Source: Saprospiraceae bacterium (GTDB taxonomy: Bacteria > Bacteroidota > Bacteroidia > Chitinophagales > Saprospiraceae). From it: a stretch of 64,000 bases of DNA. Shown here in pieces: positions 36,971 through 59,812 of this stretch (the stretch's first letter is position 1; each line of letters starts with the position of its first letter). The DNA lies in the NCBI GenBank assembly GCA_020627705.1, contig JAHDGJ010000004.1, positions 124,001 to 188,000 on the forward strand. The letters are read 5' to 3'. Below the pieces are notes generated by a model. That model ran no database searches. It had not been told where the DNA came from and worked only from the letters and a program-made list of their open reading frames with translations. Made by a program: the position numbers and the translations under genes.

Positions 36971-39793
36971 TTAATGCTTTATCAACTTTCGTGAAAGTTG
37001 TTTATTCTTATTTTCTAATCGGACCAAAAACATTCCTGAATGTAGACTGCTTACATCAATGGTACGTGTATTATCAATCAAACCATGTAATACCATTCTT
37101 CCAGATTGGTCAAAAATAGAAACCCTATCAAATGGTTCGTCGCCTTTGATTTGAATAATGGAAGTGGCCGGATTTGGAGACAGAATTAAATTACCAAGAT
37201 CTACATCATTTACATTTGAAAAAATCTGCTCTCCTTCCCCAAATACTTTAAACTCCGTTAGACTTACCCATTGACCATCATAGACTTCTGCGCCCGAAAC
37301 TGTTATTCTTACAAACCTAGCTTCAATGCTGTCTAAATCATTGACAATTGGCGCTAAGGCAGTACCAGGTATTTTATTAATGGATCGATCAACAATAGTA
37401 GTGAAAGGTCCATCCTTTTCCATAGCGCCTTCGATTATGAATTTATAGGCACGGTCCTCATAACACGTTACTTCCGTCTGAGTAATCTTAATAAAGCCTA
37501 ACAAATCTATCGTTGCTGATTGAGGAAATTCATTTACTGACCACCTAGAAACAGGATCATCATCGACTAAATTATCTGGAACATTAGGACCATCAGGAGT
37601 TCCAGTTCCTTGCGCCGGCCCTCCTAATGCCCAGTTGGTCTCATTAGAAGGAGTAAGAACTTTTATTTCTTTTGAATCCACAAAATCGCCATCAATCGTA
37701 GTCACAGTAACAAGCACTACACCTTCGGATACTGCATTTAAAACGCCACTATTTGATACTGTGGCAATGTTGGTGTCCGAGGATTGAAATACTACATTTT
37801 GATTTGTCGCATCGAACGGAGTTATGATAGCTTCTAACTGGATATTAGAGGCCTCAACTGCCAATGGCCCACCCAAATCGACCAACTCCACAACGGTAAC
37901 TAAAACAGGAACCTGCACTGTAATTTTGGTGCTCAGCGAAGTCTTTGATCCTCCTTCATTATCCGTTGCTTTTGCAGTTAAGGTATATTCTCCCTCCTGG
38001 ACTCCAGGCCAGGTAAAACTATACGGTGCTGTGGTATCTTCTCCTAATTTATTTATACCGCCTTCAAAAAATTCGACCTTCGCAACAGAACCATCAGAAT
38101 CAATCGCATCAACCTCAATTGTAATATCGCTACCTGGTAAAAAATTATCTCCATTGGCTGGAGAAGATATTTCGACGGAAGGAAAATAATTTTGTGGCGA
38201 TCCATCTTGTTCGAAAAGCTCATCAAAATGCGCCGTGGCTTCCCCACTATCTTGGAGATAAACTCCTGCTTTCCAATAGCTGGGCCATATCCAGTATGAA
38301 ACATCCATGTTTACCTTTTCCTCCCCTTCAAAATCAATAATCATATTACCATCAACTAATCGTATGTCGCAATTAAAATAGCCTCCAGGGTCTTCACCTA
38401 GATCGACATGCATGGTATTGGAACCACCATCATCAGTTTTAATAGCCGCCCAAATATGATTTATTGGGTCTTTGGTCTTATGTTTATAAATTCTCAACAA
38501 GGGTTTATTTGGTCCAGGCCCAGCATTAGCATCATCATGAATTTGCATAACTGTTACCTGATCACAAGATTGTTCTACAATATCTAATCTTCCATGCAAT
38601 GATCTATTTGCATCGTTCAAATTCCAATTTACCTCATTGCGCAATTCTGTCCTTCTACTATCTCCAGATTGATTAAATCGCACTTTATCACCATCTACAA
38701 CATAGAAATATTGCGGATGCGTATATCCTTGATTTAATACATCTTTTGCAGCTAATGTTGAACTGGTTGGTGCTTGAAGTTTACAGTCCGCTAGAAAGGG
38801 TTGAAATCTTGGAATATCAGATGGTGCAATATACTCGGTTGGAGGGGTCGGCGCAAAGTGCTCGACATCTAAGGCATAAAAAGAAACCTGTGCGTATTCT
38901 CCCGGATCACCTGCATTGTTTTGATTATAATTTCCTGCCTTGAAATACATCCAGTCGTTTGCAAAACCACTGTCGGTCATATCTATTTCTTCTACTACAT
39001 CTGGCTTCCCATCTCTCGAAATAGTTACTGTGAGTGTATTCCCAATAACTTTTATTTCGTAACTAAATCTTTCTCCTAAGGCAATACCATCTTCAGGATC
39101 AGGAGCACCATCATCTCTACTACCTATCATGTTGTACCATTGTTCAGGGCCTGTGGTCGGCTCATGGGCAAAATATATGGATCCTTTTGTGTTTGTTGGT
39201 AGTTTGCGATAATACAATCTGATAGGTTCGTCATCCGATGCATGGATTTGTCCAACAATTGTTCTTCCAACTTTTCGAAATTCATCTGAAGTCAAAGACA
39301 CGTGGTCAACAGATACCGTCGCCGTCATAATGCCATCAACACCACCAGCTGCTTCTTGATTTTCCATGGTGGATGAAGAAAACACCCAATTGTTTTTATT
39401 GATGCCCTGAGTGCTAATGCTGTTATCCCCTCTGCGAATCATTTCTCTAAGCTCAGATCTTGGATAGGTACTTCCTGAGGTAGTACTTCCGTTGTTTGGA
39501 CACCAAAAAACCATGGCGCCACTTACTGGGTCAGTATAGAAATCTGTATCGTTGGAGTACCCACTTGTCAATGCATCTTCATCTCTTTCGGTACCGTTTG
39601 GTCGCTGTAATTTCCAATAGGAAAGATCAAAATTTTCTCCAGGAGGAAGATTAGGGTCTAAATCTTGTGAACTAACTGGAGTACCTAATGCATGTATAAA
39701 AAACAAAAGCACAAGGCATCGAAAGGAAGATGGCAAATGCGTGAATACAGTTAGATTTAACTTTTGTAAAGACAAACGAAAGGACAGATTCAT
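36971..39793 (-). CDS. Multidomain alginate lyase: two PL7-type domains, Ig-like, Big_2, F5/8-type C and T9SS tail
   Basis: 940 residues from the ATG at 39793; a TTG at 39826 also keeps the frame but puts extra residues before the signal peptide. Domain 1 (about 50-315) is PL7 with all motifs: PRSELREM (Arg112), VGQIH (Gln182, His184) and YFKAGNYNQN (Tyr289). Domain 2 (about 330-530) is a second PL7-type fold with RRTELRNEV, MQIHDD and YWKAGVYLQ (Tyr512). Then come an Ig-like domain (537-628), a Big_2 domain (635-712), an F5/8-type C (CBM32-like) domain (718-852) and a T9SS sorting domain (868-940). It is predicted to be secreted and to degrade alginate. An operator-like palindrome lies 56 nt upstream. 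Confidence 0.88.
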   Translation of the reverse strand: MNLSFRLSLQKLNLTVFTHLPSSFRCLVLLFFIHALGTPVSSQDLDPNLPPGENFDLSYWKLQRPNGTERDEDALTSGYSNDTDFYTDPVSGAMVFWCPNNGSTTSGSTYPRSELREMIRRGDNSISTQGINKNNWVFSSSTMENQEAAGGVDGIMTATVSVDHVSLTSDEFRKVGRTIVGQIHASDDEPIRLYYRKLPTNTKGSIYFAHEPTTGPEQWYNMIGSRDDGAPDPEDGIALGERFSYEIKVIGNTLTVTISRDGKPDVVEEIDMTDSGFANDWMYFKAGNYNQNNAGDPGEYAQVSFYALDVEHFAPTPPTEYIAPSDIPRFQPFLADCKLQAPTSSTLAAKDVLNQGYTHPQYFYVVDGDKVRFNQSGDSRRTELRNEVNWNLNDANRSLHGRLDIVEQSCDQVTVMQIHDDANAGPGPNKPLLRIYKHKTKDPINHIWAAIKTDDGGSNTMHVDLGEDPGGYFNCDIRLVDGNMIIDFEGEEKVNMDVSYWIWPSYWKAGVYLQDSGEATAHFDELFEQDGSPQNYFPSVEISSPANGDNFLPGSDITIEVDAIDSDGSVAKVEFFEGGINKLGEDTTAPYSFTWPGVQEGEYTLTAKATDNEGGSKTSLSTKITVQVPVLVTVVELVDLGGPLAVEASNIQLEAIITPFDATNQNVVFQSSDTNIATVSNSGVLNAVSEGVVLVTVTTIDGDFVDSKEIKVLTPSNETNWALGGPAQGTGTPDGPNVPDNLVDDDPVSRWSVNEFPQSATIDLLGFIKITQTEVTCYEDRAYKFIIEGAMEKDGPFTTIVDRSINKIPGTALAPIVNDLDSIEARFVRITVSGAEVYDGQWVSLTEFKVFGEGEQIFSNVNDVDLGNLILSPNPATSIIQIKGDEPFDRVSIFDQSGRMVLHGLIDNTRTIDVSSLHSGMFLVRLENKNKQLSRKLIKH

Positions 39794-39848
39794 AACTAGA
39801 TATTTTAATAGAGGCTTTATAATCAAGTTCCTCTTTTCTCTTTTTAAA

Positions 39849-40020: not shown

Positions 40021-40047
40021 TTGAAATTTTATCCATTTTTGGCTCAA

Positions 40048-41598
40048 CTAGTACCCTGGGTTTTGAGTCAAATTAGGGTTGTTTGTTATTTCTAAAGGCG
40101 GTATTGGAAGTAAATAGTCTCTAGAAGGGTCAAAATTTTGTGTACCTAAAAGCTCCGTTTCAAAACCTCCAGGACCGAAAACTTCATCCCCCATTTGTCT
40201 TCTAACAATATCATACCATCTCTTATGTTCGAAGGCAAGCTCTAGTCTTCTTTCTTCCAACACATCCGCTACTGTGGCTCCAGAAATGTTTGCTGGAGAA
40301 GCACTAGGCGCACCTGAACCATCTCCATTTCTCGCTCTTTCTCTAATCATGTTTATGTATTGATCCGCTTCAGAGGTTAATCCAAGCTCAGCAGCTGCCT
40401 CTGCGGCAATAAGAAGAACCTCAGCGTAACGCATCAATTGGTAATTAGAATGTGAATCTCTTCCACTGGTATTTTCTTGTGGCAGATCCCCTGCCATAGC
40501 AGTATACTTGGAAATATGTGGTCTGTTTGCATTTCTACCATCTAGGCTCGAAAAATTTTGATACGTAACCACATTGCCATTATTATCTATGGCTTCTGCA
40601 TCAAAATTTACAGATTTTCTGTAATCACCATCATCCCAGTTTTCATATACCGCTAATGCCGGAACCATTACGGACCAACCGCCTGAAGGATAATACGTAG
40701 CTTGTCCAAAAAATCCGGTAAATGCAGCGAGATAATCTCTTGATTCATCGTTAATATTGGTACCAACAAAGTCTATCACCCAAATCGGTTCTAAGGAAAA
40801 ATCAGTGTTTTCCGCATGGAAAATATTACGATAATCTGGATCTAAAGCCAAATTATACATACCTGCCTTATTGATGATATCTGTGGCCTCATTGTATGCC
40901 ATTTGGTATTCACCTCTAGTAAGATATAGACTCGCAAGGAAAGCACTTGGAGCAGCTTTACCTGGAAGAGCACGATTATTTCTTGAATCAGGCAACCACT
41001 GTTTGGCATATTCGAAATCTGCAATAATACTATCATAAATTGCGTCTACCGGAGTTCTTGCTGCAATTGATGCATCAGCAGTTGAGGTAGTTTCATCCAA
41101 AAAAGGAACATCTCCAAATAGCCTTACCAAATGATAATATGACCATCCTCTAATAAATCTTGCTCTTGCAGCTATCTCTTCTTTTACACCAGCATCTTGA
41201 TCTTCAAGAACTTCCAGCTCACGGAGGGCCTCATTAGCTCCACGTATGACCTGATAGAATCTAGGCCAAAAACTTCTTTCTGGGTTAGAAGGATTAAGAA
41301 TGAGCGGGTTGGAGGCTGATACGGTAAACTGATCATGCTCAATTCGCTCAGCTGCCGTTCCTGGATTACCGATATCTACCATATCCGAACGCAATAAAAG
41401 CGTTAAACCTAATCCTCTTGAATGCAATGCTCGAGCGTCCAATTGCCCGTATGCCCCACTAATTGTGGTTTCTACAGTTTCTAAATCAAGTGTCCTTTCA
41501 TCAGGATCTAATTGGCTTTTCGCTTCTTCTTCTAAATCAGAACAACCAACAACAGAAAAAGCAAATAGTAACGTAAATAAATATTTAAACATTTTCAT
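40048..41598 (-). CDS. susD: SusD-like substrate-binding lipoprotein (first pair)
   Basis: 516 residues. Lipoprotein signal with Cys19 followed by S-D-L-E-E-E, an acidic surface-export-type signal. The SusD/RagB fold is seen in the helical N-terminal half (RFIRGWSYYHLVRLFGDVPF) and the C-terminal segment LEERRLELAFEHKRWYDIVR and LLPIPPLEITNNPNLTQNPG typical of the family end. It binds glycans at the cell surface and caps the SusC barrel. It is 20 nt after susC, in one operon. The substrate is inferred to be alginate oligosaccharides from context. Confidence 0.95.
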   Translation of the reverse strand: MKMFKYLFTLLFAFSVVGCSDLEEEAKSQLDPDERTLDLETVETTISGAYGQLDARALHSRGLGLTLLLRSDMVDIGNPGTAAERIEHDQFTVSASNPLILNPSNPERSFWPRFYQVIRGANEALRELEVLEDQDAGVKEEIAARARFIRGWSYYHLVRLFGDVPFLDETTSTADASIAARTPVDAIYDSIIADFEYAKQWLPDSRNNRALPGKAAPSAFLASLYLTRGEYQMAYNEATDIINKAGMYNLALDPDYRNIFHAENTDFSLEPIWVIDFVGTNINDESRDYLAAFTGFFGQATYYPSGGWSVMVPALAVYENWDDGDYRKSVNFDAEAIDNNGNVVTYQNFSSLDGRNANRPHISKYTAMAGDLPQENTSGRDSHSNYQLMRYAEVLLIAAEAAAELGLTSEADQYINMIRERARNGDGSGAPSASPANISGATVADVLEERRLELAFEHKRWYDIVRRQMGDEVFGPGGFETELLGTQNFDPSRDYLLPIPPLEITNNPNLTQNPGY

Positions 41599-41618
41599 AG
41601 TTAAATCTTTTTAGTGGT

Positions 41619-44600
41619 TTAGAATTTAAGGTTTAGTCCAACAGTGATCGAACTTAGATTAGGGTAATTCCCATAATCGTGGCCAATAATAACATTATCA
41701 TCTCCTCTGCTTTCACCACCGCTACCAAAATAACTTACTTCAGGATCCAAGCCAGAATAATTGGTAAAGGTTAGCATATTTTGGGCGCTTAAAGAAACTC
41801 TTGCGGATCCAAGCCCCGCTTTTTGAAGCAAGGATGTAGGCAAGGTGTAACCCACCGCTACATTTTTAAGCCGCACATAACTTCCATCTTCGACAAAACG
41901 TGAAGAACGTTCTCTTCCACGAATAGCTGCTCTTGGAATATCCGTATTGGTATTTTGTGGTGTCCAAGAATTCAAGACATCAGTTAATCCATTACTATCT
42001 CCATTATATAATTGAACAGCGGTTAAATTGTATATATCACCACCAACTGCTCCTTGAAAAAAGATATTCAAATCAAAACTTTTGTATGAAAAAGTATTTG
42101 TAACACCAAAGGTGAAATCAGGATTTGGATCACCAATAATTTGTCTATCATTATCATCAATCAATACGTTAAAATTCCCTTCCTCATCTGCCACTTCAGC
42201 AAACAAAGGTTCGCCCGGAATAGCATTGCCGTCTGCATCAAATGATCTTGCTTCTAAAGCAGTTCCAGCTGGAATTGGACCACCTTGATACACTCCTTGG
42301 TAATCTAAACCCCAGAAGAGGCCTATAGGTTCACCTTCACGTAAAATGTACGTATTGCCCCCAGCGAAATACCCAGGAGCTCCACTACCTAGTAGTTCTG
42401 AACCAGACGACAATTCTACCACTTCACTTCTGTTTCTCGCAAAATTTAGGTTCGTCGTCCATCTAAAATCATTTCTATTCATATTGTTTGAAGTCAAGGA
42501 CAATTCGAACCCTTTATTATTTATAGAACCAACATTTCTGAGGACATCTAAATCAGTGGTACCTAAATAAAAATTTGAAGCTCTATCTAGCGCCAATAAA
42601 TCTTCGGTATCTATATTATAAACATCGGCACTAAATGAAATGCGGTTTTCAAATAAGCCAACATCTACCCCAACATTGGTTTGGATTGAAGTCTCCCACT
42701 TTAGGTCTGGGTTTGCCTCCCTTGCCAAATCAACACCAAATGCTCCACCAACTTCTGAAGGTGGCTGGACTCTGTAAGAAGCAAGAGATTCGTATGGACC
42801 AATAGCTTGGTTCCCAGTCAAACCATAACTTGCTCTTAACTTAAGATTTGATAAGCTTAAATTATCCACTAAAAAACTTTCGTTTGAAACTTTCCATCCG
42901 AAAGCAACAGATGGGAAAACCGCATATTTATTGTTAGCCGCGAAGTTGGATGCTCCATCTCTTCTAACAGTTGCGGTAAGCAGATATTTGTTTGCCCAAT
43001 CTAAATTTACTCTTCCAAATACTGATTCAATTTCTGACTCAGAAAATCGAGAATCAATGGAACGTTGATCAATTTCTCCTGCTTCTAAATTATACCATTC
43101 GAAAGCATCATTTAATAATCCTCGCGCGCCTGCTTCTAGGCCTTCGGTAGTACTTTTTTGATAGGAATGACCGGCTGTAGCTGTTAAGTTACCTTGACCT
43201 ATTTGAGTGGTATAAGTCAAGTAATTTTCATTGAGCAATCTTGTTCTTTTTACAGACTCTAAAAATGCACCTCCGGCCGAAAGGACAAATGTTTGTGGCT
43301 TGAAATATCCCTCTGTTCCGTTTTGAGTTCTGTAACCCAAGGTGGTTTTAAAATTAAGTCCCTCCACAATTTTTAAATCTGCATACATGTTGGTTCTTGC
43401 ATTATCCGTTTTTGTTTCGTTCCTGATTTGCGTAGCAACTGCCCATGGATTTTCTATATCATCACCTACAGTATTTTGAGAAAAATTACCGGCGTCATTA
43501 AATCTTCCAACATCCGGTGAAAATCTGAAAGCCAAAGCTACGACATCATCACCACCACCGTTGACCGAACCAATGGCATCTCTACCAGAGGATTGCGTAG
43601 ACACCCCATTTTGCTCACTACGACTGGCGATACTATTTAAGCCAATTTTTAGTCTATCATTTACTTTGGCATCTACATTTGCTAAAAACTGGATTTTATC
43701 AAAGTCCGAATTAACAACGATTCCTTCTTGAGTAAAGTAGGTTCCTGAGATATAATAATTTACATTTTCACTTCCTCCAGACACAGATAACTGATGGTTT
43801 TGTGTAGCACCAGCTCTATATATTTCGTCCTGCCAATCGGTGTTTTCCATGCCTTGGGCGTAAGGCGCATCTCCTGCATTAGCACGAATCATGTTTTGAT
43901 ATTGAGCAAATCCGGATGCGTCAAGAAGATCCAACCTATTTGTCGTTTGTTGCGAAGAATAACTTGAATTGAGTTCTACTACGGTTTTTCCTGACTTACC
44001 TTTTTTGGTAGTAATCAGTATCACCCCTCCTGATCCTCTTGATCCATAAATTGCAGTCGCCGAAGCATCTTTTAAAATCTCAATCGATTCAATATCGTTT
44101 TGTTGTGGAAATGAGGCCCCAACGAATCCGTCAACGACAACCAGTGGATCACTGCTTGCATTGAGTGAAGAGCTACCACGTACTCGAATAGAAATACCAG
44201 CTCCTGGCTCTCCTCCATTTTGGGTTTGAACAGCAACCCCTGCGGCACGCCCTTGAAGAGCTTGGCCTGCATTTAAAAGAGGAAAAGCTTGCAACTCTTC
44301 CGCTTTAACAGAAGAAACACTTCCTGTTACATCACTCTTTTTAACACTACCGTATCCTACAATGACTACTTCATCAATTACTTCGGCATCGACGGCCAAG
44401 TTTATATTGATGTTGTTTTGTCCATTAATAGGAATCGTTTGAGTTTTATACCCGATGTAAGAAATCTCTAAAACGTCACTTGGCGAGGCTTTTAAAACAA
44501 AGCTTCCATCAAAATCCGTGACGGTGCCTATTTCGGAACCTTGTACAGATACTGTTACCCCTATCAAGGGTTCTCCGGATTCATCCGAAACCATACCACT

Positions 44601-44708
44601 TATTACTTCCTGTGCACTTGCACTTAAGGAAGCCAAAAAGATAAACAGCACAATAAGCCCTGCCCCTTTTTGGGTTTTTCTTGAAAAAAAATTACTTACG
44701 TACTTCAT
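41619..44708 (-). CDS. susC: SusC-like TonB-dependent outer membrane transporter (first pair)
   Basis: 1029 residues. Signal peptide 1-33, then a CarboxypepD_reg-like domain (about 35-105), the TonB-box region DEVVIVGYG (112-120), the plug (about 121-235, with VDGFVGASFPQQNDIESIEI) and a barrel ending in VGLNLKF. It imports oligosaccharides with SusD. It is preceded by a 348-nt gap with one operator-like palindrome at 44927-44940. Its position beside PL6 and PL7 lyases points to alginate products. Confidence 0.95.
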   Translation of the reverse strand: MKYVSNFFSRKTQKGAGLIVLFIFLASLSASAQEVISGMVSDESGEPLIGVTVSVQGSEIGTVTDFDGSFVLKASPSDVLEISYIGYKTQTIPINGQNNININLAVDAEVIDEVVIVGYGSVKKSDVTGSVSSVKAEELQAFPLLNAGQALQGRAAGVAVQTQNGGEPGAGISIRVRGSSSLNASSDPLVVVDGFVGASFPQQNDIESIEILKDASATAIYGSRGSGGVILITTKKGKSGKTVVELNSSYSSQQTTNRLDLLDASGFAQYQNMIRANAGDAPYAQGMENTDWQDEIYRAGATQNHQLSVSGGSENVNYYISGTYFTQEGIVVNSDFDKIQFLANVDAKVNDRLKIGLNSIASRSEQNGVSTQSSGRDAIGSVNGGGDDVVALAFRFSPDVGRFNDAGNFSQNTVGDDIENPWAVATQIRNETKTDNARTNMYADLKIVEGLNFKTTLGYRTQNGTEGYFKPQTFVLSAGGAFLESVKRTRLLNENYLTYTTQIGQGNLTATAGHSYQKSTTEGLEAGARGLLNDAFEWYNLEAGEIDQRSIDSRFSESEIESVFGRVNLDWANKYLLTATVRRDGASNFAANNKYAVFPSVAFGWKVSNESFLVDNLSLSNLKLRASYGLTGNQAIGPYESLASYRVQPPSEVGGAFGVDLAREANPDLKWETSIQTNVGVDVGLFENRISFSADVYNIDTEDLLALDRASNFYLGTTDLDVLRNVGSINNKGFELSLTSNNMNRNDFRWTTNLNFARNRSEVVELSSGSELLGSGAPGYFAGGNTYILREGEPIGLFWGLDYQGVYQGGPIPAGTALEARSFDADGNAIPGEPLFAEVADEEGNFNVLIDDNDRQIIGDPNPDFTFGVTNTFSYKSFDLNIFFQGAVGGDIYNLTAVQLYNGDSNGLTDVLNSWTPQNTNTDIPRAAIRGRERSSRFVEDGSYVRLKNVAVGYTLPTSLLQKAGLGSARVSLSAQNMLTFTNYSGLDPEVSYFGSGGESRGDDNVIIGHDYGNYPNLSSITVGLNLKF

Positions 44709-45056: not shown

Positions 45057-47246
45057 TTACAATTTGACTATTTTATCTTTAAAGAGGAGCTCTCCTTCAT
45101 TTCTGATATTGATTATGTAAATACCCTTTGTGTTGTTCCGAAAGTTAAAATCAAAGGCTATATCATCGAAGCTAAAAATTTCCACTTTTTGACCTTGCAA
45201 ATCAAAAATTTCTACATCGTACATTCCAGCGATTTTCATTTCAATTTTAATACTTCCATTCAGGGTAGGGTTAGGAAAAACGCGGATTACTGGGTTTTCG
45301 TCCTCTTCCATTTCCTCTTCCTCATCTGGCGGAGGCGGGTCACCGCCAAGGACGGCTAAACGAGTGAAATTTGTATTGCCTTCGTTGTCCGTAGCTATGG
45401 CCTGTAAATAATGCACTTCATGGCTAAGATTTCTTATGGTCTCGGTAAGTCCAGTAAAAATAAATGGGGCTGAATCAGCCGTAGCCAAAGGCTCCCCATT
45501 GATTAACAATTTTACATTACTAATATCACCATCTTCATCTGTAGCTTCTACTTCAATATCTCCACCTTGCCACTCGGACACATCAATTTGACTATTTGGT
45601 GTTCTGAAACTCACATTTGGTGGTTGACCTGTAAAACCACCCTCAGAAAAATCACCTAGCCCTTTCCAATTGGCGAGTAAATCATAAATATCACTTGACC
45701 GTTGCTCAGGTATTGTAATGTTCTCTACCGCATCAGGGCCCAGACGATCTTCTAACTGTTGCAAATAAAGACTTCTTGGTTGGACGTTGGTGCCCCAACT
45801 TTCCCAATACCCTTCTCCAGTTTGGTTTGAACCGATGCATCCGATCCCCCAATTCATTCCACCTTGTGGGCTATCCACTCTAAATTCGCCAGTATAGGAC
45901 GACAAATTCCAAAACATGGTTTGAGCACCAGCCCATCCATGACCAGTCCCAGCATTACCTCTGTTCCATACTCTTATAGAGCCTCCTCGAATATTATCAA
46001 AAAGAGTTCCTGTAGCCCATCTATGATGCGGTCCAATATCTGATTCGGCACTTGCCGCTAAACCATCCAAAAACACATTTGGACCCGTAACTCTTGAGCC
46101 TGTAACAAAATCATGACGACCGTCTATCGCAAAACACCGTTGAAATAAATTTCCAATGCCTTCTTGAATAGCAAAAGAATATCTTCTTCCTCCGGTTACT
46201 CGGGATTTTGGATCTATATAAGCACAATCTTGAACGGTTACAAAGTTGGCGTCGTCAATATCTACAGTACTGTATGCAAGAAACTGACCTGTCACTTGTT
46301 TTACCCAGCAATTTTCGGCATCACTTATTCTAACAGCTGTCCAAGCATGGGATTCGTCCGAATTGGCATCGTAAAAGGATTGTACTCTAAGGTTTTCAAT
46401 CCCGCAATGACTTATCCGTCTAGAGAAGTCTACTTTAGTAATAGTCCCTCCTCCAAAAACTTCTTCTATAACATCAACTATAGGGATATCGACTGTTATC
46501 TCATTTCCAGAAATCGCAGTAATTTGCCTTTCGTGATCGACTATATAACCCTGAGGTGTCCATCCCACGCAATCAATATCTCCTGCACACAAGGTTTCTT
46601 GATTCATTCCTAATTCATCGATCCAAAACTGATTTGGTGTTCTAGAAACCACAATTTTATCCCCAACAGAAAAATCTGAAGCATCCTCAATTTGAAATGA
46701 AAAAGCACCAACTGGGACATAATCTGTAGTTATTGCTTGTGTAGATTCTGGGTCCTTGGTTATACTTCCATCTCCTAGAATCGTAATAACATTGTGATCC
46801 GTTCGTGGGTTTGCGTGTAAAACGGTTCCATTTAGCCCTTGCCCTTCACCCCTTAAAACTACACCGGAAGCTCTTATCGCTAATAAGTTATTTAAACTGT
46901 AATGCCCTGCTTTGATTAGAACCACTCCTCTAAAGCCATTTTGATCTGGCTCCATTGCTTCAACTTGGGCTATGGCTTCTTGGATTCTTTGTCTATCATC
47001 TCCTTCCTCGGGGGTAACGATAGCTCGGATGGACAAATCATTTGGTAGCGCTACACCCCCACCCATATAACCAGCTTTAGAAAAATCGGGGATGGTGTTC
47101 ACAGCATTCGTTTGATTGGTCATCGCAAAGGGCACATATGTCAATTTGCCCTCGTCCATGTAAACCAACTCAGAATCGTTTTGCGCTGATGCGAAATAGA
47201 TTCCTAATAGTCCTATAAAGAGAAATGTCAATCTTTTGGTAAGCAT
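45057..47246 (-). CDS. Secreted right-handed beta-helix protein of unrecognised family, T9SS substrate
   Basis: 729 residues. Signal peptide 1-22 ending ASA/Q. Residues about 60-530 are a right-handed beta-helix: RQRIQEAIAQVEAMEPDQNG, FRGVVLIKAGHYSLNNLLAI, RASGVVLRGEGQGLNGTVLH, then repeats around SHCGIENLRVQSFYDANSDE and a loop with DIGPHHRWATGTLFDN. Residues about 560-645 are an Ig-like domain, and the last 75 residues are a T9SS sorting domain after a DEEEEMEEDE linker. Beta-helix proteins are often lyases or epimerases, but no known PL signature is certain here. It sits between two alginate gene groups, so a role in alginate processing is likely. Confidence 0.7.
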   Translation of the reverse strand: MLTKRLTFLFIGLLGIYFASAQNDSELVYMDEGKLTYVPFAMTNQTNAVNTIPDFSKAGYMGGGVALPNDLSIRAIVTPEEGDDRQRIQEAIAQVEAMEPDQNGFRGVVLIKAGHYSLNNLLAIRASGVVLRGEGQGLNGTVLHANPRTDHNVITILGDGSITKDPESTQAITTDYVPVGAFSFQIEDASDFSVGDKIVVSRTPNQFWIDELGMNQETLCAGDIDCVGWTPQGYIVDHERQITAISGNEITVDIPIVDVIEEVFGGGTITKVDFSRRISHCGIENLRVQSFYDANSDESHAWTAVRISDAENCWVKQVTGQFLAYSTVDIDDANFVTVQDCAYIDPKSRVTGGRRYSFAIQEGIGNLFQRCFAIDGRHDFVTGSRVTGPNVFLDGLAASAESDIGPHHRWATGTLFDNIRGGSIRVWNRGNAGTGHGWAGAQTMFWNLSSYTGEFRVDSPQGGMNWGIGCIGSNQTGEGYWESWGTNVQPRSLYLQQLEDRLGPDAVENITIPEQRSSDIYDLLANWKGLGDFSEGGFTGQPPNVSFRTPNSQIDVSEWQGGDIEVEATDEDGDISNVKLLINGEPLATADSAPFIFTGLTETIRNLSHEVHYLQAIATDNEGNTNFTRLAVLGGDPPPPDEEEEMEEDENPVIRVFPNPTLNGSIKIEMKIAGMYDVEIFDLQGQKVEIFSFDDIAFDFNFRNNTKGIYIINIRNEGELLFKDKIVKL

Positions 47247-47376
47247 AATTTTGAATATAACGATAGATCAGAACAGGGCCAGTTTCCTCTAATAAAGTCC
47301 AATAAACTCTTTGGATTGAATGCTAAAAAAAATTGCTCGTACAAGCATAAAGATCCAATGAATATGTTGTAAAATA

Positions 47377-47410
47377 AAAAGAGGAATGTCAAAATAGACA
47401 CTCCTCTTTT
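47377..47410 (-). terminator. Terminator after the PKD lipoprotein gene
   Basis: A 14-bp stem with one mismatch (47377-47390 with 47397-47410) and a 6-nt loop, flanked by A and T runs. It lies 52 nt after the stop at 47462. Confidence 0.85.
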
Positions 47411-47461
47411 AGTTCATGGAAATTACATTCCACTATTTTTCATTATCTATAAACTTTTTGT

Positions 47462-48514
47462 TTACTGATCTTCACCCACTGTAGCGTCTGAACTATTCAC
47501 ATGGTATGGTGAATCAAGGTTGACGTCCGGGTTTAAGTCATCACCTGCTACTCTTCCCTGGAAGTTATCTTCAAAAACAACTGTTTCCGTACCAGAATCT
47601 GAAGAATACAATACGATGTCATCTACATGATATACACCATCATTTACTGAAGAGTTTGAATTATACTTCCACTGGAAATTAGCCGCACCATCATTTGTAG
47701 CTTCTAAATGACCAGGCTCATCACCTGCACCACCGTTGGTAGTACTTACTGCGTCAGCAATTACAGTTTGTCCTCCAATCACAACAGTATACGAAGGCGT
47801 GTTTACAAAATCAGCAGACCAGCTAATTTCAACTGGTACCCAAGTATCTGCAACTCCTTCTGGGAAATTTGCAGCAGCTATGGTAGCATCAGAAGCACCT
47901 TCTCTAAATTCGTGTGGCGCATTGTCCTTAAGCCTTACTTCTACTATTGAAAAATCACCTGTAGTTGAAGAACCTGCAACGTTGATAAATCCATCTTTAA
48001 TATCCATATCAACTGGACCTTCAGCCACTCTATACATAAAAGTGATTCTTCCATTTTGAATGGAATCTACTGCTAATCTCAATTCGCCAGTATCATCATC
48101 CTTAGAATCTGTAATTACAGCGTATCTGTTTTTAGGCGCAGTAACTTCTATTGTTTCTGTTGCGGTACCCATTACACCATCAGAGGCTGTTACAGTCAAG
48201 GTAACGTCGTAAGTACCTTCAGCAGAAAACGTGTGGCTTGGACTTGCATCAGTTGAGCTGCCATCTCCACCAAAATCCCACGAAGAAGTAAAAGATGTAT
48301 TAGAAATACCGTTTACCACAGAGTTGTTTGTAAAACTATAAGTTAAAGAGTTGTCCGCATCAACTTGTGATGAAAAATTGGCAACAACAGTAGATGGATC
48401 TTCCATCATTTCGTCTGGCTCATCGTCACCACAAGAAGTAATCACTGCAAGTGATAAAAACAAGGACATCACGTAGAAGAAGTTCTTGTTTAAATTAGAG
48501 ATAAAAATTTTCAT
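47462..48514 (-). CDS. PKD-domain surface lipoprotein
   Basis: 350 residues. Lipoprotein signal with Cys28, then G-D-D-E-P-D-E, an acidic surface-export-type sequence. Residues about 40-128 form a PKD domain (SPSHTFSAEGTYDVTLTVTA). Residues 130-350 are a beta-rich segment (FMYRVAEGPVDMDIKDGFIN, HVDDIVLYSSDSG) like a laminin-G or carbohydrate-binding jelly roll. Such lipoproteins accompany SusCD pairs as extra glycan-binding proteins. It forms its own unit with a palindromic operator 117 nt upstream and a terminator downstream. Confidence 0.8.
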   Translation of the reverse strand: MKIFISNLNKNFFYVMSLFLSLAVITSCGDDEPDEMMEDPSTVVANFSSQVDADNSLTYSFTNNSVVNGISNTSFTSSWDFGGDGSSTDASPSHTFSAEGTYDVTLTVTASDGVMGTATETIEVTAPKNRYAVITDSKDDDTGELRLAVDSIQNGRITFMYRVAEGPVDMDIKDGFINVAGSSTTGDFSIVEVRLKDNAPHEFREGASDATIAAANFPEGVADTWVPVEISWSADFVNTPSYTVVIGGQTVIADAVSTTNGGAGDEPGHLEATNDGAANFQWKYNSNSSVNDGVYHVDDIVLYSSDSGTETVVFEDNFQGRVAGDDLNPDVNLDSPYHVNSSDATVGEDQ

Positions 48515-50476: not shown

Positions 50477-52513
50477 CTATTTGGGCGGTGTCCCAGGGCC
50501 TACTTTCGTGTCCCTAAACCAAACTTCTGTATAGCTGCCATTTTCATACTGTTTTGCTATATCACCACCATAGATTTCTGCTCCAGCACACCAAACCATA
50601 TTCTTTTCGGGGTCTTTCCCATTGGTTTGATTGTAAGCACCTTGTTTGAAATAATTAAGCTCTCCAGCATAAGCCTCTGGTCTTTCTGTTCCATCTTGAC
50701 CAATAGGTACAAAAGTTCTCCTTACTTGCTCTGGAATGTCTGACGCGTTGACATACTCAGAAGCAATAAGGTTCTTCGTAAATGTTCTCGTTTCGTGACC
50801 ATCAGATTTGAAGGTTAGATACATGATGCCTTTGTAAACATTAATCTCGTAACTAAATTCTTCGCCCAAAGCAATTCCATCCGTTGGTTCTTTTGGATAA
50901 TCTGTTTTGTTTTTACCAACAATAGACATATCGTGGCCCCAAATCGCAGTTGAAAAATCCCATCTACCTCCGTTATCATCTCCTGCTGTGTTAATTTCAT
51001 AATTCCAAAAAACAGATCCTTTTTCGTGGCCCGGAAATTTTTTATAAAAAATCTTTAGTGGTTCGTTTTCGTGACCTTCACCACTATGAATTTGACCTAC
51101 TACTGTAGAAAAAGAAGCCGCAACTCGTGCATCACCCGTTGTGGAAACATGCATCACCCGGCAGGTTGCAGAAAGCTTTCCTCCTTCTTCCGGAATCCAA
51201 TCTCTTTTCTCGTGTAGCTCCGTGCGTGTATTGCTAGAGTTTTTTGAAGTAACCCCTGCATTGGGCGTTTTATATGCAACCCATCTTCTCGTACCATCAA
51301 TCACGGTGTAGAAATAATCTTTGTTTTCGAAGTCGATCAAATTGTCTTCAGTGCTTCCATCACCGAGCATTATTTTAAACTTATCCAAGGTCGAAATAAC
51401 TTCACTAGGATAAACTGTTTTATTACTTAAACCATCGTTAGCAGCAAAATAACCTGCATTAGAAATAGCATCATCACTTATTTCAAAACTTACATCCTTA
51501 AACCACACTTCAGCATAATTTCCATCTGCATATTGCTTTGTCAAATCACCACCATGTGTTTCTGCACCAGAACACCATACCCGGTTAACGGCAGGATCTT
51601 TTCCATTAGTCTGATTATAAGAACCTAGTTTGAAAAATAACCCTTCTCCATCATAAGCCTTTTCTCGCTCCACCCCATCTTGACCAATCGGAAAAAACAA
51701 ATCTCTGACTTGTTGCGGCGCATCAGAGGCTTTGGCATATGCTGACTCAATTAAGTTTTTGCTAAACGTTTTTGTTTCATGGCCAGGACTCTTAAACGTC
51801 AAGTACATCATCCCTTCATTGATATCTACTTCGTAACTAAATTCTTCGCCCAACTTAATACCATCCTTTGGTTCTGAAGGAATTGAGTTTTTATCTGACG
51901 CTATTATTGAGAAATCATACCCCCAAATTGGATAGGAGAAATCCCATCGTCCTGAATTGTCATCTCCTTTGGTATTAATCTCGTAATTCCAAAAAACAGA
52001 TCCTTTCTCGTGGCCTGGAAATTTTTTGTAGAAAATCTTTAATGGCTCATTTTCATGTCCATCTGCACTATGTATTTGACCTACTACCACCGAATGTGTA
52101 GAAGCCACTGTCGGATCTCCTGTGGGTGACACATTCATAACCTTTAACGTGGCATTCATTTTTGCCTTCGTCATTGGGGACCACTTTTTCAATTGAGCTA
52201 ATTCTGTTCTGGTATTATTTGAGGTACCATGTGTGTTACCTGCGTTAGGTGTTTTGAACACAACCCATTCTTGGTCATTTTCTTTAGCTACGTAAAAAAA
52301 GTCTTTGTTGCTTAAATTGGTTGCTACACCAGCGTTGGTTCCATCTCCAAGTATGAGATTGAAATCTTTGAATATTGGTAATACCTCATTGGGAACTTTT
52401 CCTTCCGCAGCAGAATCAACAGTACCGTCTGATTTGCTTAAATCTTTACATGATTGAAAAAATAATACTCCAATGAGCAACATTACACCTACAGTAAATT
52501 TTGATTTAAACAT
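50477..52513 (-). CDS. Lipoprotein with two tandem PL7 alginate lyase domains
   Basis: 678 residues. Lipoprotein signal with Cys22 (LFFQSC), then K-D-L-S-K, without the acidic cluster of the locus's SusD proteins. Domain 1 (about 41-345) has NTRTEL (Arg102), VGQIH (Gln146, His148) and the YNQTN Tyr299. Domain 2 (about 370-670) has NTRTEL (Arg430), VGQIH (Gln474, His476) and Tyr627. The PL7 catalytic set (Arg, Gln, His, Tyr) is complete in both. The two domains are very similar, with near-identical stretches such as FYKKFPGHEKGSVFWNYEIN, so they arose by duplication. It is the last gene of the kdgF-MFS-SDR-kdgK-eda run, 60 nt after eda. A periplasmic role is inferred. Confidence 0.88.
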   Translation of the reverse strand: MFKSKFTVGVMLLIGVLFFQSCKDLSKSDGTVDSAAEGKVPNEVLPIFKDFNLILGDGTNAGVATNLSNKDFFYVAKENDQEWVVFKTPNAGNTHGTSNNTRTELAQLKKWSPMTKAKMNATLKVMNVSPTGDPTVASTHSVVVGQIHSADGHENEPLKIFYKKFPGHEKGSVFWNYEINTKGDDNSGRWDFSYPIWGYDFSIIASDKNSIPSEPKDGIKLGEEFSYEVDINEGMMYLTFKSPGHETKTFSKNLIESAYAKASDAPQQVRDLFFPIGQDGVEREKAYDGEGLFFKLGSYNQTNGKDPAVNRVWCSGAETHGGDLTKQYADGNYAEVWFKDVSFEISDDAISNAGYFAANDGLSNKTVYPSEVISTLDKFKIMLGDGSTEDNLIDFENKDYFYTVIDGTRRWVAYKTPNAGVTSKNSSNTRTELHEKRDWIPEEGGKLSATCRVMHVSTTGDARVAASFSTVVGQIHSGEGHENEPLKIFYKKFPGHEKGSVFWNYEINTAGDDNGGRWDFSTAIWGHDMSIVGKNKTDYPKEPTDGIALGEEFSYEINVYKGIMYLTFKSDGHETRTFTKNLIASEYVNASDIPEQVRRTFVPIGQDGTERPEAYAGELNYFKQGAYNQTNGKDPEKNMVWCAGAEIYGGDIAKQYENGSYTEVWFRDTKVGPGTPPK

Positions 52514-52573: not shown

Positions 52574-53233
52574 TTAAGCTCTCAAAGAGGCAATCAACTC
52601 CAATGCTTTTCGCACGTTTTGCGTGAGCTCTTCGAAATTTTTGTTCGAAATAATATCCTTCGTTATAAGCTTAGATCCCATTCCTACACAACAAGCTCCA
52701 GCATCAAACCAGGATTCTAAATTTTCCTTTTCAAGGGACACTCCACCGGTAGGCATAATCTTAGTCCAAGGTTGAGGCGCTCTCACCGATTTGATAAATT
52801 TGGGTCCATAAACACTTCCTGGAAACAATTTTACTATCTCACAACCCAATTCTTCAGCTTTGCCTATTTCTGTTAAGGTAGCACATCCCGGTGCCCATAG
52901 GATCTTTCGTCGATTGCAAACCACTGCAACATCTTCCCTCATCGATGGAGTTACAACAAAGTCAGCCCCACATTGTATAAATAAAGCAGCAGTAGCAGCA
53001 TCTGGAACAGATCCTACCCCAAGGGCCATGCCCTTTAGATCACTCTTGACGTATTTGCTCAACGCAGAAAATACTTCATGTGCAAAAACCCCTCGGTTGG
53101 TAAATTCGAGTAATCGAGCGCCTCCATCATAGCAGGCTTTGATTACATTTTTACATAGTTCTAAATCACTATTATAAAACAAAGGAACCAGTCCTTGTTT
53201 TTCCATTAGTCGTATAACTTCTACTCTTTCCAT
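52574..53233 (-). CDS. eda: 2-dehydro-3-deoxy-phosphogluconate (KDPG) aldolase
   Basis: 219 residues, class I aldolase. The Schiff-base Lys135 lies in CEIVKLFPGS, and Glu43 in LLEFTNRG is the expected acid/base residue. TPSMREDVAVVCNRR and MPTGGVSLEKENLESWFDAG fit the family. It splits KDPG into pyruvate and glyceraldehyde-3-phosphate, the last step of alginate uronate breakdown. It is 3 nt after kdgK, so the two are coupled. Confidence 0.95.
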   Translation of the reverse strand: MERVEVIRLMEKQGLVPLFYNSDLELCKNVIKACYDGGARLLEFTNRGVFAHEVFSALSKYVKSDLKGMALGVGSVPDAATAALFIQCGADFVVTPSMREDVAVVCNRRKILWAPGCATLTEIGKAEELGCEIVKLFPGSVYGPKFIKSVRAPQPWTKIMPTGGVSLEKENLESWFDAGACCVGMGSKLITKDIISNKNFEELTQNVRKALELIASLRA

Positions 53234-53236
53234 TTA

Positions 53237-54271
53237 TTATCTGGACACGCGTCCGCTTTTATCGCCTGACATTAGTTTTTCTACTTCTGCAACAGTTACC
53301 AAATTGGCATCTCCTTTAATGGTGTGCTTTAAGCAAGAAGCAGCAACCGCAAATTCTAAAGCCTTTTGATCATCTTCTAAAGCCAATAACCCATAAATAA
53401 GACCTGCCATAAAACTATCTCCTCCGCCAACACGATCCACTATGTGTGTAATGTCATACGACGGTGCTTCGTATAAATTAGAACCATCATACATTACTCC
53501 AGTCCAAGTATTATGCGAAGCTGAAATTGATCCTCTCAAGGTTGTAATAACCTTTTTTGCTCTTGGAAACATTTCCATTAACTGCTTTAAAACAGACAAA
53601 TATGCTTTGCCATCTACGGAGTCTCCATGAGTTACATCCACACCTTCTGGATGTAAACCAAAATGCTTTTCGGCATCCTCTTCATTTCCCAAAATGACGT
53701 CACAACCTTCAACCAATGCAGGCATCACTTCGTTAGGTTGTTTACCGTATTTCCAAAGTTTCTTGCGATAATTTAAGTCTGTAGAAACTGTAACTCCTAA
53801 TCTATTCGCCGCTTGGATAGCTTCCAAACAAGCATCAGCGGCTCCTTGCGACAATGCTGGAGTTATCCCAGTCCAATGAAACCAGTCCGCCCCCTGAAAC
53901 ACCTCTTCCCAATCAATCATACCAGCCTGAATACTATCCATGCCAGAATGAGCTCGGTCGTATACTACTTTACTTCCTCTGCTTACTGCACCAGTTTCTA
54001 AAAAATAGATTCCTAACCTTTCGCCGCCTCTTACTATTTGATCAGTATGTACCCCTCGTTTGCGCAATTCCATAATAGCGCATTCTCCGATATCATTAGC
54101 CGGAATTCTCGAAATAAATGAGGTATTCAAACCGTAGTTGGCAAGTGAAACAGCTACATTGCTTTCGCCACCTCCATAGACAACATCAAAAGAATATGTT
54201 TGTGAAAACCTTTTAAATCCAGGAGGGCTTAAACGAAGCATTATCTCTCCAAATGTTACAATCTTCTTCAT
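53237..54271 (-). CDS. kdgK: 2-dehydro-3-deoxygluconokinase (PfkB family)
   Basis: 344 residues. PfkB carbohydrate kinase with the N-terminal FDVVYGGGESNVAVSLANYG motif and the C-terminal RVGGGDSFMAGLIYG motif holding the catalytic Asp. The residues around RGGERLGIYFLETGAVSRG fit KdgK. It phosphorylates 2-keto-3-deoxygluconate (KDG) to KDPG. It lies between the SDR reductase and eda. Confidence 0.93.
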   Translation of the reverse strand: MKKIVTFGEIMLRLSPPGFKRFSQTYSFDVVYGGGESNVAVSLANYGLNTSFISRIPANDIGECAIMELRKRGVHTDQIVRGGERLGIYFLETGAVSRGSKVVYDRAHSGMDSIQAGMIDWEEVFQGADWFHWTGITPALSQGAADACLEAIQAANRLGVTVSTDLNYRKKLWKYGKQPNEVMPALVEGCDVILGNEEDAEKHFGLHPEGVDVTHGDSVDGKAYLSVLKQLMEMFPRAKKVITTLRGSISASHNTWTGVMYDGSNLYEAPSYDITHIVDRVGGGDSFMAGLIYGLLALEDDQKALEFAVAASCLKHTIKGDANLVTVAEVEKLMSGDKSGRVSR

Positions 54272-54291: not shown

Positions 54292-55050
54292 TTATATTCC
54301 TAATGCTTGACCTCCACCAACTTGAATTGTTTCAGCAGTTAAAAATGCTGCATCTTTACTTGCCAAGAATGATACTACCCCAGACACATCTTCTGGCTGA
54401 CCTAATCGACCAAGCATGATGTTCTTGGCCCATGATTGGAATACCTCAGGTTTGGTAGATTTAATCCCAATGTGGAAGTTAGTATCTATCGTACCCGGTG
54501 ATACTGCATTTACTCTGATACCGTACTCCGCTAAATCTTTTGCTAATGCTCTCGTAATCGTATGAACAGCAGCCTTAGAGGTACCATACATCCCTGCACC
54601 TGGGCCTCCTGCATTCCATCCTGCATTAGATGTATAGTTGATAATCGTAGGATTATCTCCTTTTTTTAGGAATGGGATTGCAGCTCTAGACGCGAAAAAC
54701 ACCGAATCTAAATTTAATGCCAACACATTTCTATAAAACTCAGTGGTCATCTCTTCAAATCTAGCTCTACCACCTAATCCACCTGCATTGTTAACAAGTA
54801 CATCAATTCGACCATACTTTTCACCAATTGCTTTTACATTAGCAGTTACTGCATCTTCTTGAGTAACGTCAAAGTGACAGAACTCAGCCTTGATACCTTC
54901 TGCTACTAATTCCGCAACTCTCTGTGGCCCTTCCTCTGCATTAATTCCGTTTACAACTACCGTAAACCCATCCTGACCTAATCTCTTTGCAACTGCCAAT
55001 CCGATTCCACTTGTCGCACCTGTTACTATAGCTATTTTTCCTACGTTCAT
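54292..55050 (-). CDS. SDR reductase, probably 4-deoxy-L-erythro-5-hexoseulose uronate (DEH) reductase
   Basis: 252 residues. Rossmann motif TGATSGIG (10-17), NNAG (87-90) and the catalytic Ser141, Tyr155 and Lys159 (MYGTSKAA). It would reduce DEH to KDG with NAD(P)H. The class is certain; the DEH substrate is inferred from the neighbours KdgF, KdgK and Eda and from known SDR DEH reductases in alginate loci. It lies 20 nt after kdgK's upstream neighbour, between MFS and kdgK. Confidence 0.85.
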   Translation of the reverse strand: MNVGKIAIVTGATSGIGLAVAKRLGQDGFTVVVNGINAEEGPQRVAELVAEGIKAEFCHFDVTQEDAVTANVKAIGEKYGRIDVLVNNAGGLGGRARFEEMTTEFYRNVLALNLDSVFFASRAAIPFLKKGDNPTIINYTSNAGWNAGGPGAGMYGTSKAAVHTITRALAKDLAEYGIRVNAVSPGTIDTNFHIGIKSTKPEVFQSWAKNIMLGRLGQPEDVSGVVSFLASKDAAFLTAETIQVGGGQALGI

Positions 55051-55117: not shown

Positions 55118-56749
55118 TTATGCTGGTTTTATTTTTTCGACTTTTGGTATTAATACCCATACAGCAAACAGGGCGATAGCTGCTAGTGCACCACCTATAA
55201 TAAACGCTGGTATATAATTACCTCCTTTAGTAATAAATGGTATGATGGCAGTCAGTGCTGCGCCGGCTAGTTTTGCCGCCGTTCCTGCAAATCCGGAAAG
55301 CGTACCTACTACTTTACCACCAAAGATATCACTAGGTATAGTTTGTACATTTCCAATCGCTGTTTGGAATCCAAATAACAATATTGCCATTATAATAATT
55401 GCAATTAAAGCAGAAATATTATTTGCTCTTTGAATTTCTTCTATTGAGCCTATGGCTGCTATTCCGACATCTGTAGGTTTGCCATATTTTGGTAACAGTT
55501 TTTCTTCAGCGGTTGCATCTTCATTTGGCTTTGGCCATTCAGCTTTAGAATACGCTTCAATAAAACTAGGATCAGCCTTTATTTCTGCCACTGATTTGCC
55601 AGCAACTCTGTCTACAAATTCTTGATTTTTGAACAGTTCTTTAAATGCTTTATCATTTGTAATTTTTTTGACTTGGGTATTAGCCATAGTTACTGTTGTA
55701 GATTCTTCTACATCAAATAGTGCTAAAACAGATGACTCTCCTGGAAATTTTAAAAGAACAAAACACGGAATCATAATGATACATCCCAAGGTGATTACCA
55801 TTTTTCGTGTTTTATCTACCGACCAACCGTTGCCAAGTTTTTTCCTAGCCAAAAGTCCACCATACCATGCTCCGAGCATAGCCCCAACGTAAGGAACCCA
55901 CGCTGAAAAAGCAATATCTCTCACATTCATTCCAAATACTTCATTTAAGTAAATAGGAATCCACCCTATGAACAGCCACCAAATCGGATCTAAGGCTGCA
56001 GAGGCAATAATCACTCCCCAACTTTCTTTATGACCTAGTAGTTTTTTGGTATCGGGATTATACTCTTCAACATTTGCGTCATCTGCATCCTGATTCTTCT
56101 GTCCTGTGAGTATATATTGTTTTTCTTCCTCTGTTATCCAAGGATGCTTCTTTGGATCTCCTTTTACAAAGTAAAACCAAGGCAATAGCCAGATAAATCC
56201 GAGTAAACTAACTACTATGAAAATAGATTGCCAGCCCATCACTACGGACAATAATCCAATAATCGGATATGCTACGATACCTCCAACTGCTGCACCTGAG
56301 TTAAATATACCTTGAGCAAATGCCCGTTCTTTTGTAGGAAACCATTCTGCATTTGCCTTAGCGGCTCCCGGCCAGTTACCTGCCTCTGCAACTCCTAGCA
56401 GTGCTCTAATGATAGAAAAACTTAAGACCCCTTGAGCTACAGCATGTAGCATCGTGGCTATTGACCATACACCTATTGATAGTGCAAAACCTATTCGAGT
56501 ACCAATCCAGTCAAAGATCTTTCCAAAGATCGTCTGTCCTGCGGCATAAGAAAGTATGAATACGGTCATGATCGAACCATATATAACCTTTGTATCATCT
56601 GCCGCCATGTCTGGAAATAAATCCTTCGCGATGTCCGGCCATAATGCTCCGAATGCTTGACGATCAATATAGTTGATAATTGCCGCCACTGCGACTAGAC
56701 CCACTACCCACCATCGAAGTCCTCCAACTTTTTTATTATTTACGGCCAT
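55118..56749 (-). CDS. MFS transporter (ACS/hexuronate type) with a large hydrophilic insertion
   Basis: 543 residues with 12 predicted transmembrane segments. The N-terminal half (INYIDRQAFGALWPDI, GNWPGAAKANAEWFPTKERA) matches the anion:cation symporter family that carries hexuronates. Residues about 336-443, a run of 105 mostly charged residues between TM9 and TM10, are absent in typical family members and by topology would face the periplasm. It probably imports unsaturated uronate or DEH. Its ATG overlaps the kdgF stop by 10 nt. Confidence 0.88.
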   Translation of the reverse strand: MAVNNKKVGGLRWWVVGLVAVAAIINYIDRQAFGALWPDIAKDLFPDMAADDTKVIYGSIMTVFILSYAAGQTIFGKIFDWIGTRIGFALSIGVWSIATMLHAVAQGVLSFSIIRALLGVAEAGNWPGAAKANAEWFPTKERAFAQGIFNSGAAVGGIVAYPIIGLLSVVMGWQSIFIVVSLLGFIWLLPWFYFVKGDPKKHPWITEEEKQYILTGQKNQDADDANVEEYNPDTKKLLGHKESWGVIIASAALDPIWWLFIGWIPIYLNEVFGMNVRDIAFSAWVPYVGAMLGAWYGGLLARKKLGNGWSVDKTRKMVITLGCIIMIPCFVLLKFPGESSVLALFDVEESTTVTMANTQVKKITNDKAFKELFKNQEFVDRVAGKSVAEIKADPSFIEAYSKAEWPKPNEDATAEEKLLPKYGKPTDVGIAAIGSIEEIQRANNISALIAIIIMAILLFGFQTAIGNVQTIPSDIFGGKVVGTLSGFAGTAAKLAGAALTAIIPFITKGGNYIPAFIIGGALAAIALFAVWVLIPKVEKIKPA

Positions 56750-57950: not shown

Positions 57951-57961
57951 ATTCACTTATT

Positions 57962-59800: not shown

Positions 59801-59812
59801 GATTTTCTAATT

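Follow-up and report, generated by a model that had tools for sequence, protein, structure and literature searches.

A secreted beta-helix protein of an unnamed PL29-related family in a Saprospiraceae alginate locus, a candidate uronan lyase

Introduction

The alginate locus of a marine-type Saprospiraceae bacterium (contig JAHDGJ010000004.1) includes the gene of a secreted beta-helix protein, here called Q, and raises the question of what such a protein does among alginate lyases. The first-pass annotation, made from the letters of the DNA, had placed Q in an unrecognised family and offered three roles for it: lyase, epimerase or binding protein. The window analysed is the whole stretch of 64,000 nucleotides. 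Q is a real, conserved, secreted component of the Saprospiraceae-type alginate locus. Judged by sequence comparison, it belongs to an unnamed family that is related to PL29 and yet fails the available cut-offs of PL29.

The alginate locus

The features of Q and of its locus are listed in Table 1. We take PF08787 to be family PL7 and PF14592 to be family PL6, and the cupin is presumably KdgF-like. As had been claimed, Q lies between alginate gene groups, with PL6, PL7, SusD and SusC genes on one side and the PKD gene, a second PL7 gene and a uronate catabolism set on the other. The aldolase, kinase, SDR, transporter, cupin and GntR genes form this set; such genes have established roles in the alginate catabolic pathway, which are assigned here to the genes as predictions. 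The PKD-domain protein is a candidate surface glycan-binding protein. The locus looks like two blocks (34945-48514 and 50477-63073), which are adjacent in the window and in loci L059 and L066; L057, L063 and L068 are examples of fetched loci in which they are not.

Table 1. Features of protein Q and of the alginate locus in the window
Feature	Coordinates	Strand	Basis
Q, 729-aa secreted beta-helix protein	45057-47246	minus	ORF, ATG start
Q, signal-peptide-like N terminus, residues 1-21	47184..47246	minus	by eye from sequence
Q, beta-helix core, residues 24-535, PL29-related, closed by C-terminal helices	45642..47177	minus	AlphaFold2, profile and fold comparison
Q, ISHCGIENLR, residues 278-287	46386..46415	minus	alignment and sequence
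Q, GRHDF, residues 376-380 (R377, H378)	46107..46121	minus	alignment and sequence
Q, DIGPHHRWATG, residues 403-413 (H407, H408, R409)	46008..46040	minus	H407 pairing in two aligners
Q, GTGHGW, residues 433-438 (H436)	45933..45950	minus	alignment and sequence
Q, Big_7 Ig-like domain, residues 543-610	45417..45620	minus	Pfam
Q, T9SS type A sorting domain, residues 656-726	45069..45281	minus	Pfam and NCBIfam
PF14592 (PL6 type) with BACON and sub-cut-off T9SS tail	34945..36876	minus	profile search
PF08787 alginate lyase (PL7 type) with Big_7, F5/8 and T9SS domains	36971..39826	minus	Pfam
SusD-type glycan-binding lipoprotein	40048..41598	minus	Pfam
SusC-type TonB-dependent receptor	41619..44708	minus	Pfam
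PKD-domain protein (PF18911), lipoprotein-like start, directly upstream of Q	47462..48514	minus	Pfam
GNAT acetyltransferase, between the two alginate gene groups	48910-49353		profile search
Polyprenyl synthetase, between the two alginate gene groups	49432-50397		profile search
Second PF08787 alginate lyase (PL7 type)	50477..52513	minus	Pfam
KDPG/KHG aldolase	52574..53233	minus	PRK07114, 355 bits (cut-off 275)
PfkB sugar kinase, KDG-kinase-like	53237..54271	minus	Pfam and NCBIfam
SDR oxidoreductase, candidate DEH reductase	54292..55050	minus	Pfam
MFS transporter, uronate-type candidate	55118..56749	minus	NCBIfam matches below cut-off
Cupin, KdgF-like candidate	56740..57126	minus	profile search
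GntR-type regulator	57246..57956	minus	NCBIfam matches below cut-off
Second SusD (58499-59800) and SusC (59813-63073) pair	58499..63073	minus	profile search

Protein architecture and predicted fold

The tail of Q matches Por_Secre_tail (residues 656-726, 35.7 bits, cut-off 27) and TIGR04183, the T9SS type A sorting domain (36.9 bits, cut-off 23), which marks Q as T9SS cargo, and the Ig-like domain matches Big_7 (residues 543-610, 30.9 bits, cut-off 24.1). The core gave nothing above the curated Pfam or NCBIfam cut-offs. Its AlphaFold2 model (residues 24-535) has a mean pLDDT of 95.7; the homologue L119 from Thermosporothrix, also modelled, reached 95.8. The description of Q as a beta-helix with a T9SS tail and an Ig-like domain was thus borne out by the domain scores and by the model.

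The solved folds that match the core model are right-handed beta-helices, and alginate epimerases are among the highest-scoring ones. In VIA-align, which tested mainly residues 47-464 of the core, AlgE-type epimerases and an epimerase/lyase filled the top five rows for both models. For the core of Q these rows had Z of 27.5-28.3 (rmsd 2.0-2.9 over 265-267 residues), followed by the polygalacturonase 1bhe at 27.2; for the L119 model they had 28.2-28.5, followed by 7chu at 27.1 and 1bhe at 26.8. These rows are nearly tied with a polygalacturonase and a viral protein, and for the model of Q the epimerase ranking is only a hint, since by the rule of VIA-align rows up to 1 Z apart are tied. Foldseek placed phage depolymerases first (E 1.4e-11) and AlgE4 37th (E 9.5e-5), and a viral structure library gave phage and giant-virus beta-helices as no more than general fold matches. 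The absence of a fold family from these lists was not counted as exclusion.

Searched by sequence against the PDB, Q matched in its Ig and tail regions only, besides weak chance matches. The profile of its family matched the viral pectin-lyase-like protein 7chu (66 positions, E 1.4e-6), the other rows being at chance level.

Relationship to PL29 lyases

The BT3328 protein of Bacteroides thetaiotaomicron is the founding member of PL29. An excerpt of PMC9067506 describes it as an endo-lyase of the cell surface that cleaves CS, DS and HA by beta-elimination. Q matches the family of this lyase, NF058554, at 41 bits (E 7.6e-11, residues 45-319), below the cut-off of 1100, and DUF4955 (PF16315) at 20.6 bits (residues 481-503), below the gathering score of 25. 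Compared by hhalign, an alignment of 67 rows of the Q family (A3) and one of nine BT3328/PL29-type rows (A4), of which only L136 scores above the NF058554 cut-off, gave a probability of 100 and E 2.6e-40 over 436 columns with 21% identity. The two are collinear from the N-terminal DFSxAGY to the C-terminal PxSLYxxQLxxRLG. Compared with L136 alone, Q gave a weak match (best piece E 0.001). With another PL29-type protein, L138, as query, BLASTP retrieved many members of the family at roughly 25% identity across some 500 aa. Both types occur in one 21.5-kb stretch of Desertivirga arenae (L080), which contains a PL29-type ORF (2-1222; 403 aa align to L138 with 71% identity) and, at 9794-11518, a gene of the Q type.

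Q resembles BT3328 and PL29 in this collinearity, in its beta-helix-type core, in a histidine equivalent to H407 (9/9 PL29-type rows), in its surface location and in its SusC/SusD setting. It differs in its low identity (about 21%), in missing the NCBIfam and DUF4955 cut-offs, and in lying in an alginate locus, not in a GAG locus. The PL29-type L136 has a DUF4988 N terminus, whereas Q has Big_7 and a T9SS tail. The family was rightly called unrecognised insofar as its core passes no curated cut-off; Q is not without kin, because profile comparison clearly relates its core over the full length to lyases of the BT3328/PL29 type, and the weak NF058554 match, though below the cut-off, is a further sign of this. 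In the open-licence literature we found no description of the Q family, and likewise nothing on DUF4955. A PDB sequence search with L136 found no solved PL29 structure.

The neighbouring lyases share other traits with Q: Big_7 and a T9SS tail in the PL7-type neighbour, and a beta-helix (Beta_helix match) in the PL6-type one. Unlike them, Q matches neither PF14592 nor PF08787 at E <=0.1.

Conserved residues and candidate active site

Two polar motifs quoted in the first-pass annotation as possible active-site loops are present in Q, ISHCGIENLR from residue 278 and DIGPHHRWATG from residue 403, and they fared differently. In a joint MAFFT alignment, H407 of the second motif is histidine in 13/13 rows of the alginate clade and 55/55 other GPHHR-type rows (each of these groups containing one duplicate gene pair), in every row of two further groups (7/7 each) and in all nine PL29-type rows. 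The GPHHRWATG loop, a family signature, is strongly conserved and is the best candidate for the active site. The conservation of ISHCGIENLR lies mostly in its Gly and its Glu. The Glu, E284, is kept across all groups compared (9/9 PL29-type rows) and probably has a structural role as part of a beta-helix turn.

R377 is arginine in every row of the four HxRW-type groups, and H436 is histidine in 13/13, 54/55, 7/7 and 6/7 of their rows; neither is conserved in the PL29 rows of this alignment. H407 pairs with His 436 of A4 in both hhalign and MAFFT. H378 is paired by hhalign with the invariant His 409 of A4, whereas MAFFT pairs the neighbouring D379, so only the equivalence of H407 is firm, the two aligners differing by one residue at H378. 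The conservation suggests a site centred on H407. Counting of coils would place GRHDF opposite the coil of AlgE4 with R195 and H196, but no claim is built on this.

Proteins of the DUF6298 type (about 1050 aa, annotated only as DUF6298) have a core homologous to that of Q, 33-41% identical and with the same W, R and G positions. Q itself matches DUF6298 (PF19815) at 16.8 bits over profile positions 1-34 only, below the cut-off of 28.1. Unlike Q, these proteins have Ile at the position of H407 (His in 0/11 rows) and Ala at that of H436, have lost R377 in 11/11 rows and form a clade of their own. Their activity probably differs from that of Q, given the Ile and Ala in 11/11 rows. This sister clade (L010-L014, L016, L020, L021, L026, L031 and L036) keeps the fold, and a gut Bacteroides plasmid carries a gene of this type.

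Relatives and conserved gene order

In a sample of 395 genomes of the phylum, 88 had some match to Q (E <=1e-3), many of them to the Ig or tail regions only, and the matches to the core form a long list at 33-56% identity. Among 60 near-relative genomes, 42 had some match and five a core match, i.e. the genome of the window itself, G395, G405, G419 and G410. Q is present at about 68% identity over its full length in G395 and G405, of the same family, and at 34-38% in G419 and G410. Within the genus, one of the three other genomes searched has Q (G395); the remaining two are 73% and 64% complete.

Two peptide patterns, one of which covers GPHHR, were used to scan a genome collection. This yielded 228 stretches and 193 confirmed relatives, and the 80 best were retained as loci. 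The scan is silent on the number of relatives that lack the patterns, since these were required, and the loci include duplicate contigs (L056 = L035, L060 = L034 and L133 = L006). Nineteen of the 80 loci are of the Saprospiraceae type, with Q 63-73% identical (their labels include one Marinoscillum, one Bacteroidia bacterium and one Lewinella cohaerens, strain DSM 23179, whose locus is L068). The PKD gene lies directly upstream of Q in 15 of these 19, the other four stretches beginning at Q, and SusC lies directly downstream in 18, the remaining one ending at Q with its contig. Beyond SusC follow SusD (16 loci), PL7 (15) and PL6 (10); where a later gene is missing, the stretch or contig ends first, except in L058, whose last, cut-off ORF of 172 aa was unmatched. 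In L059 and L066 the aldolase, kinase, SDR, transporter and PL7 set adjoins the block of Q, as in the window. The full-length copies in two genomes and the gene order recurring elsewhere show that Q is more than a chance ORF.

A tree of 102 rows, built by a quick method with SH-aLRT support only, placed the PL29-type rows on one side of a fully supported branch, with long branches. The GPHHR-type proteins in it come from Bacteroidota and at least eight other named phyla. Two human-faecal records labelled 'Bacteriophage sp.' (MT837463.1 and MT835659.1), unannotated and of phage nature by that label, encode relatives at 31-33% identity.

Genomic context in the wider family

Fifty of the other 61 loci, representing 48 genomes, were taken to genome searches. 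Q matches were classed as GPHHR-type (>560 bits, 65 matches) or sister clade (330-560 bits, 32 matches), weaker ones being dropped. For PF05426, a cluster label that mixed these lyases with SASA esterases was replaced by HMM-based counts, restricted to matches above 200 bits (n=42), with all weaker ones (<=135.7 bits) dropped. Of these lyases, 20/42, in 16 genomes, lie within 25 kb of a GPHHR-type gene (0.61 expected from uniform random placement in the 48 genomes), and 2/42 within 25 kb of a sister-clade match (0.40 expected). For PL6-type genes and the Q family the count was 10/60, in seven genomes (0.88 expected), and for PL7-type genes outside the Saprospiraceae-type loci 0/17 (0.23 expected), both in the 48 genomes. 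All these expectations treat the genomes as independent, though kinship exists among them. One of the seven genomes with PL6-type genes near the family, a Spirochaetales MAG (L123), has two such genes in its fetched locus. The PF05426 neighbours do not single out alginate, because PL38, a family of the PF05426 type, can cut HA and CS, as stated in an extract of PMC13027841.

In a Caulobacterales MAG (L130) and in Pontixanthobacter (L134), Q-type genes lie among housekeeping genes, with PL6 and PL7 elsewhere in both genomes. In four Pontibacter loci (L097, L098, L107 and L108) the Q-type gene adjoins a bacterial sugar transferase cluster, like the lyases of exopolysaccharide clusters. These settings speak against a link of the whole family to uronans.

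The 13-row alginate clade forms, with L072, L073, L074 and L077, a well supported clade of 17 rows. These four rows, the nearest outside the alginate clade, all carry CBM96, a family founded on the alginate-binding module of a PL39 alginate lyase, in the part of PMC9971899 that describes it. Alginate binding is a property of this founding module and not necessarily of every member. In L131 (9818-12319) a CBM96 (Pfam) sits within the core, at about residues 170-200, instead of being appended, and L133, L006 and L007, of the Ignavibacteriota type like L131, have an extra stretch at the same place. In Chitinophaga japonensis (L081, 9902-13990) one protein joins the core to a complete GH95 enzyme.

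Proposed function

The most likely function of Q is that of a PL29-type lyase on alginate or on a companion uronan. The basis for this is the set of secretion signals, the fold prediction, the PL29 homology, the conserved residues and the locus context, and from these we infer the catalysis, the roles of the residues, the endo mode and the substrate. The PF05426 and PL6-type genes near the relatives, the CBM96 of the nearest outside rows and the alginate epimerases among the top folds speak for it as well. In its full form, held with modest confidence and a little better than even, the proposal is that Q leaves the cell by the T9SS and acts outside as an endo-lyase, in a subfamily related to PL29 that has no name yet, with a uronan, most likely alginate, as substrate. 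The groove of the beta-helix would bind this uronan, and successive coils would contribute R377/H378, H407/H408/R409 and H436, with Y356, to a metal-free site centred on histidine. There, the C6 carboxylate would be neutralised, the C5 proton abstracted and the 4-O bond broken by beta-elimination. Outside the cell, Q would work alongside the lyases of the PL7 and PL6 types, and the unsaturated oligosaccharides formed would be taken up through the SusC/SusD pair.

Against this reading stand the low identity to PL29, the missed cut-offs, the lack of a PL7 link outside the Saprospiraceae-type loci and the relatives among housekeeping, sugar transferase or GH genes. Against its alginate part, the known substrates of PL29 are glycosaminoglycans, not alginate. 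A lyase of the same mechanism may act on a different uronan that accompanies alginate, be it glucuronan-like, a fucan with GlcA or an acidic exopolysaccharide, and so open the path for PL7 and PL6. The wider family, with PF05426, GH88, GH29, GH31, GH2, GH95 and sulfatase genes nearby, agrees with this, as do the substrates of the PL29 relatives and the GH95 fusion. We nevertheless think it rather unlikely for Q, since the locus in the window has two PL7-type genes, one PL6-type gene and uronate catabolism, the listed GH genes are absent among the genes scanned there, and CBM96 is present in the nearest rows beyond the alginate clade.

Of the three roles first offered, we favour the lyase over an epimerase, and give pure binding the lowest likelihood. 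A mannuronan C5-epimerase or a bifunctional epimerase/lyase, turning M into G ahead of G-preferring lyases, is suggested by the AlgE-type enzymes and the epimerase/lyase (8ja4/8jaz) that head the structural comparison for two models (Z up to 28.5) and share with Q the beta-helix of the A-module, in fold only. Unlike the AlgE type, with its catalytic motif of Y149, D152 and H154 (DPHE), Q has neither a DPHE nor a DPHD string, and no RTX-type R-modules were seen in it by Pfam search. Profile comparison with AlgE4 aligned 51 columns of the N-terminal cap, without signal in the catalytic region, the Z scores differ by no more than about 1 from those of other beta-helices, and a degradative locus has no need of an epimerase. 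AlgE-like catalysis in Q was not supported, the strings being missing and the helix part not alignable by sequence. Despite the absent motif, an epimerase/lyase is kept as an improbable rival, because in AlgE7 one His/Tyr site of a beta-helix does both chemistries (PMC8824271).

Q could also be a non-catalytic surface binding or scaffold protein holding alginate for SusC/SusD, as it adjoins this pair and the PKD protein, and as adhesins with a beta-helix fold exist, PfbA being one among the fold matches. Against this, 75 rows of GPHHR-type proteins and paralogues, drawn from several phyla, keep the charged groove-type motifs nearly invariant, and relatives add separate CBMs to the core, which is usual for catalytic domains, so that this role is quite improbable. 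The scores of 1bhe would fit a beta-helix glycoside hydrolase, GH28-like, on a side chain or the main chain; the chance of it is very slim, with no Pfam GH domain on the core at E <=0.1 and sequence kinship to a lyase family.

Beyond the lyase proposal itself, it is conceivable that the GPHHR-type proteins are a separate lyase family. The Saprospiraceae branch would then be a new metal-free alginate lyase (or epimerase/lyase), using His and Arg shared with GAG lyases and not the sites of AlgE or PL7, and one beta-helix scaffold would be the common source of glycosaminoglycan and alginate cleavage. We put this forward tentatively, as possible rather than probable.

Implications

If the proposed function holds, the unnamed family, for which a single genome scan confirmed 193 relatives, would gain a predicted function, and the Saprospiraceae-type alginate system would gain a further surface enzyme with a named set of residues. 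In Verruconatronum alginivorum, two PL29-annotated proteins that rise on alginate are called chondroitinases, as given in a section of PMC13274419; the reading of Q may explain them, should they be of the GPHHR type. The range of PL29-type lyases, whose described substrates have been glycosaminoglycans of animals, would in that case widen to algal uronans.
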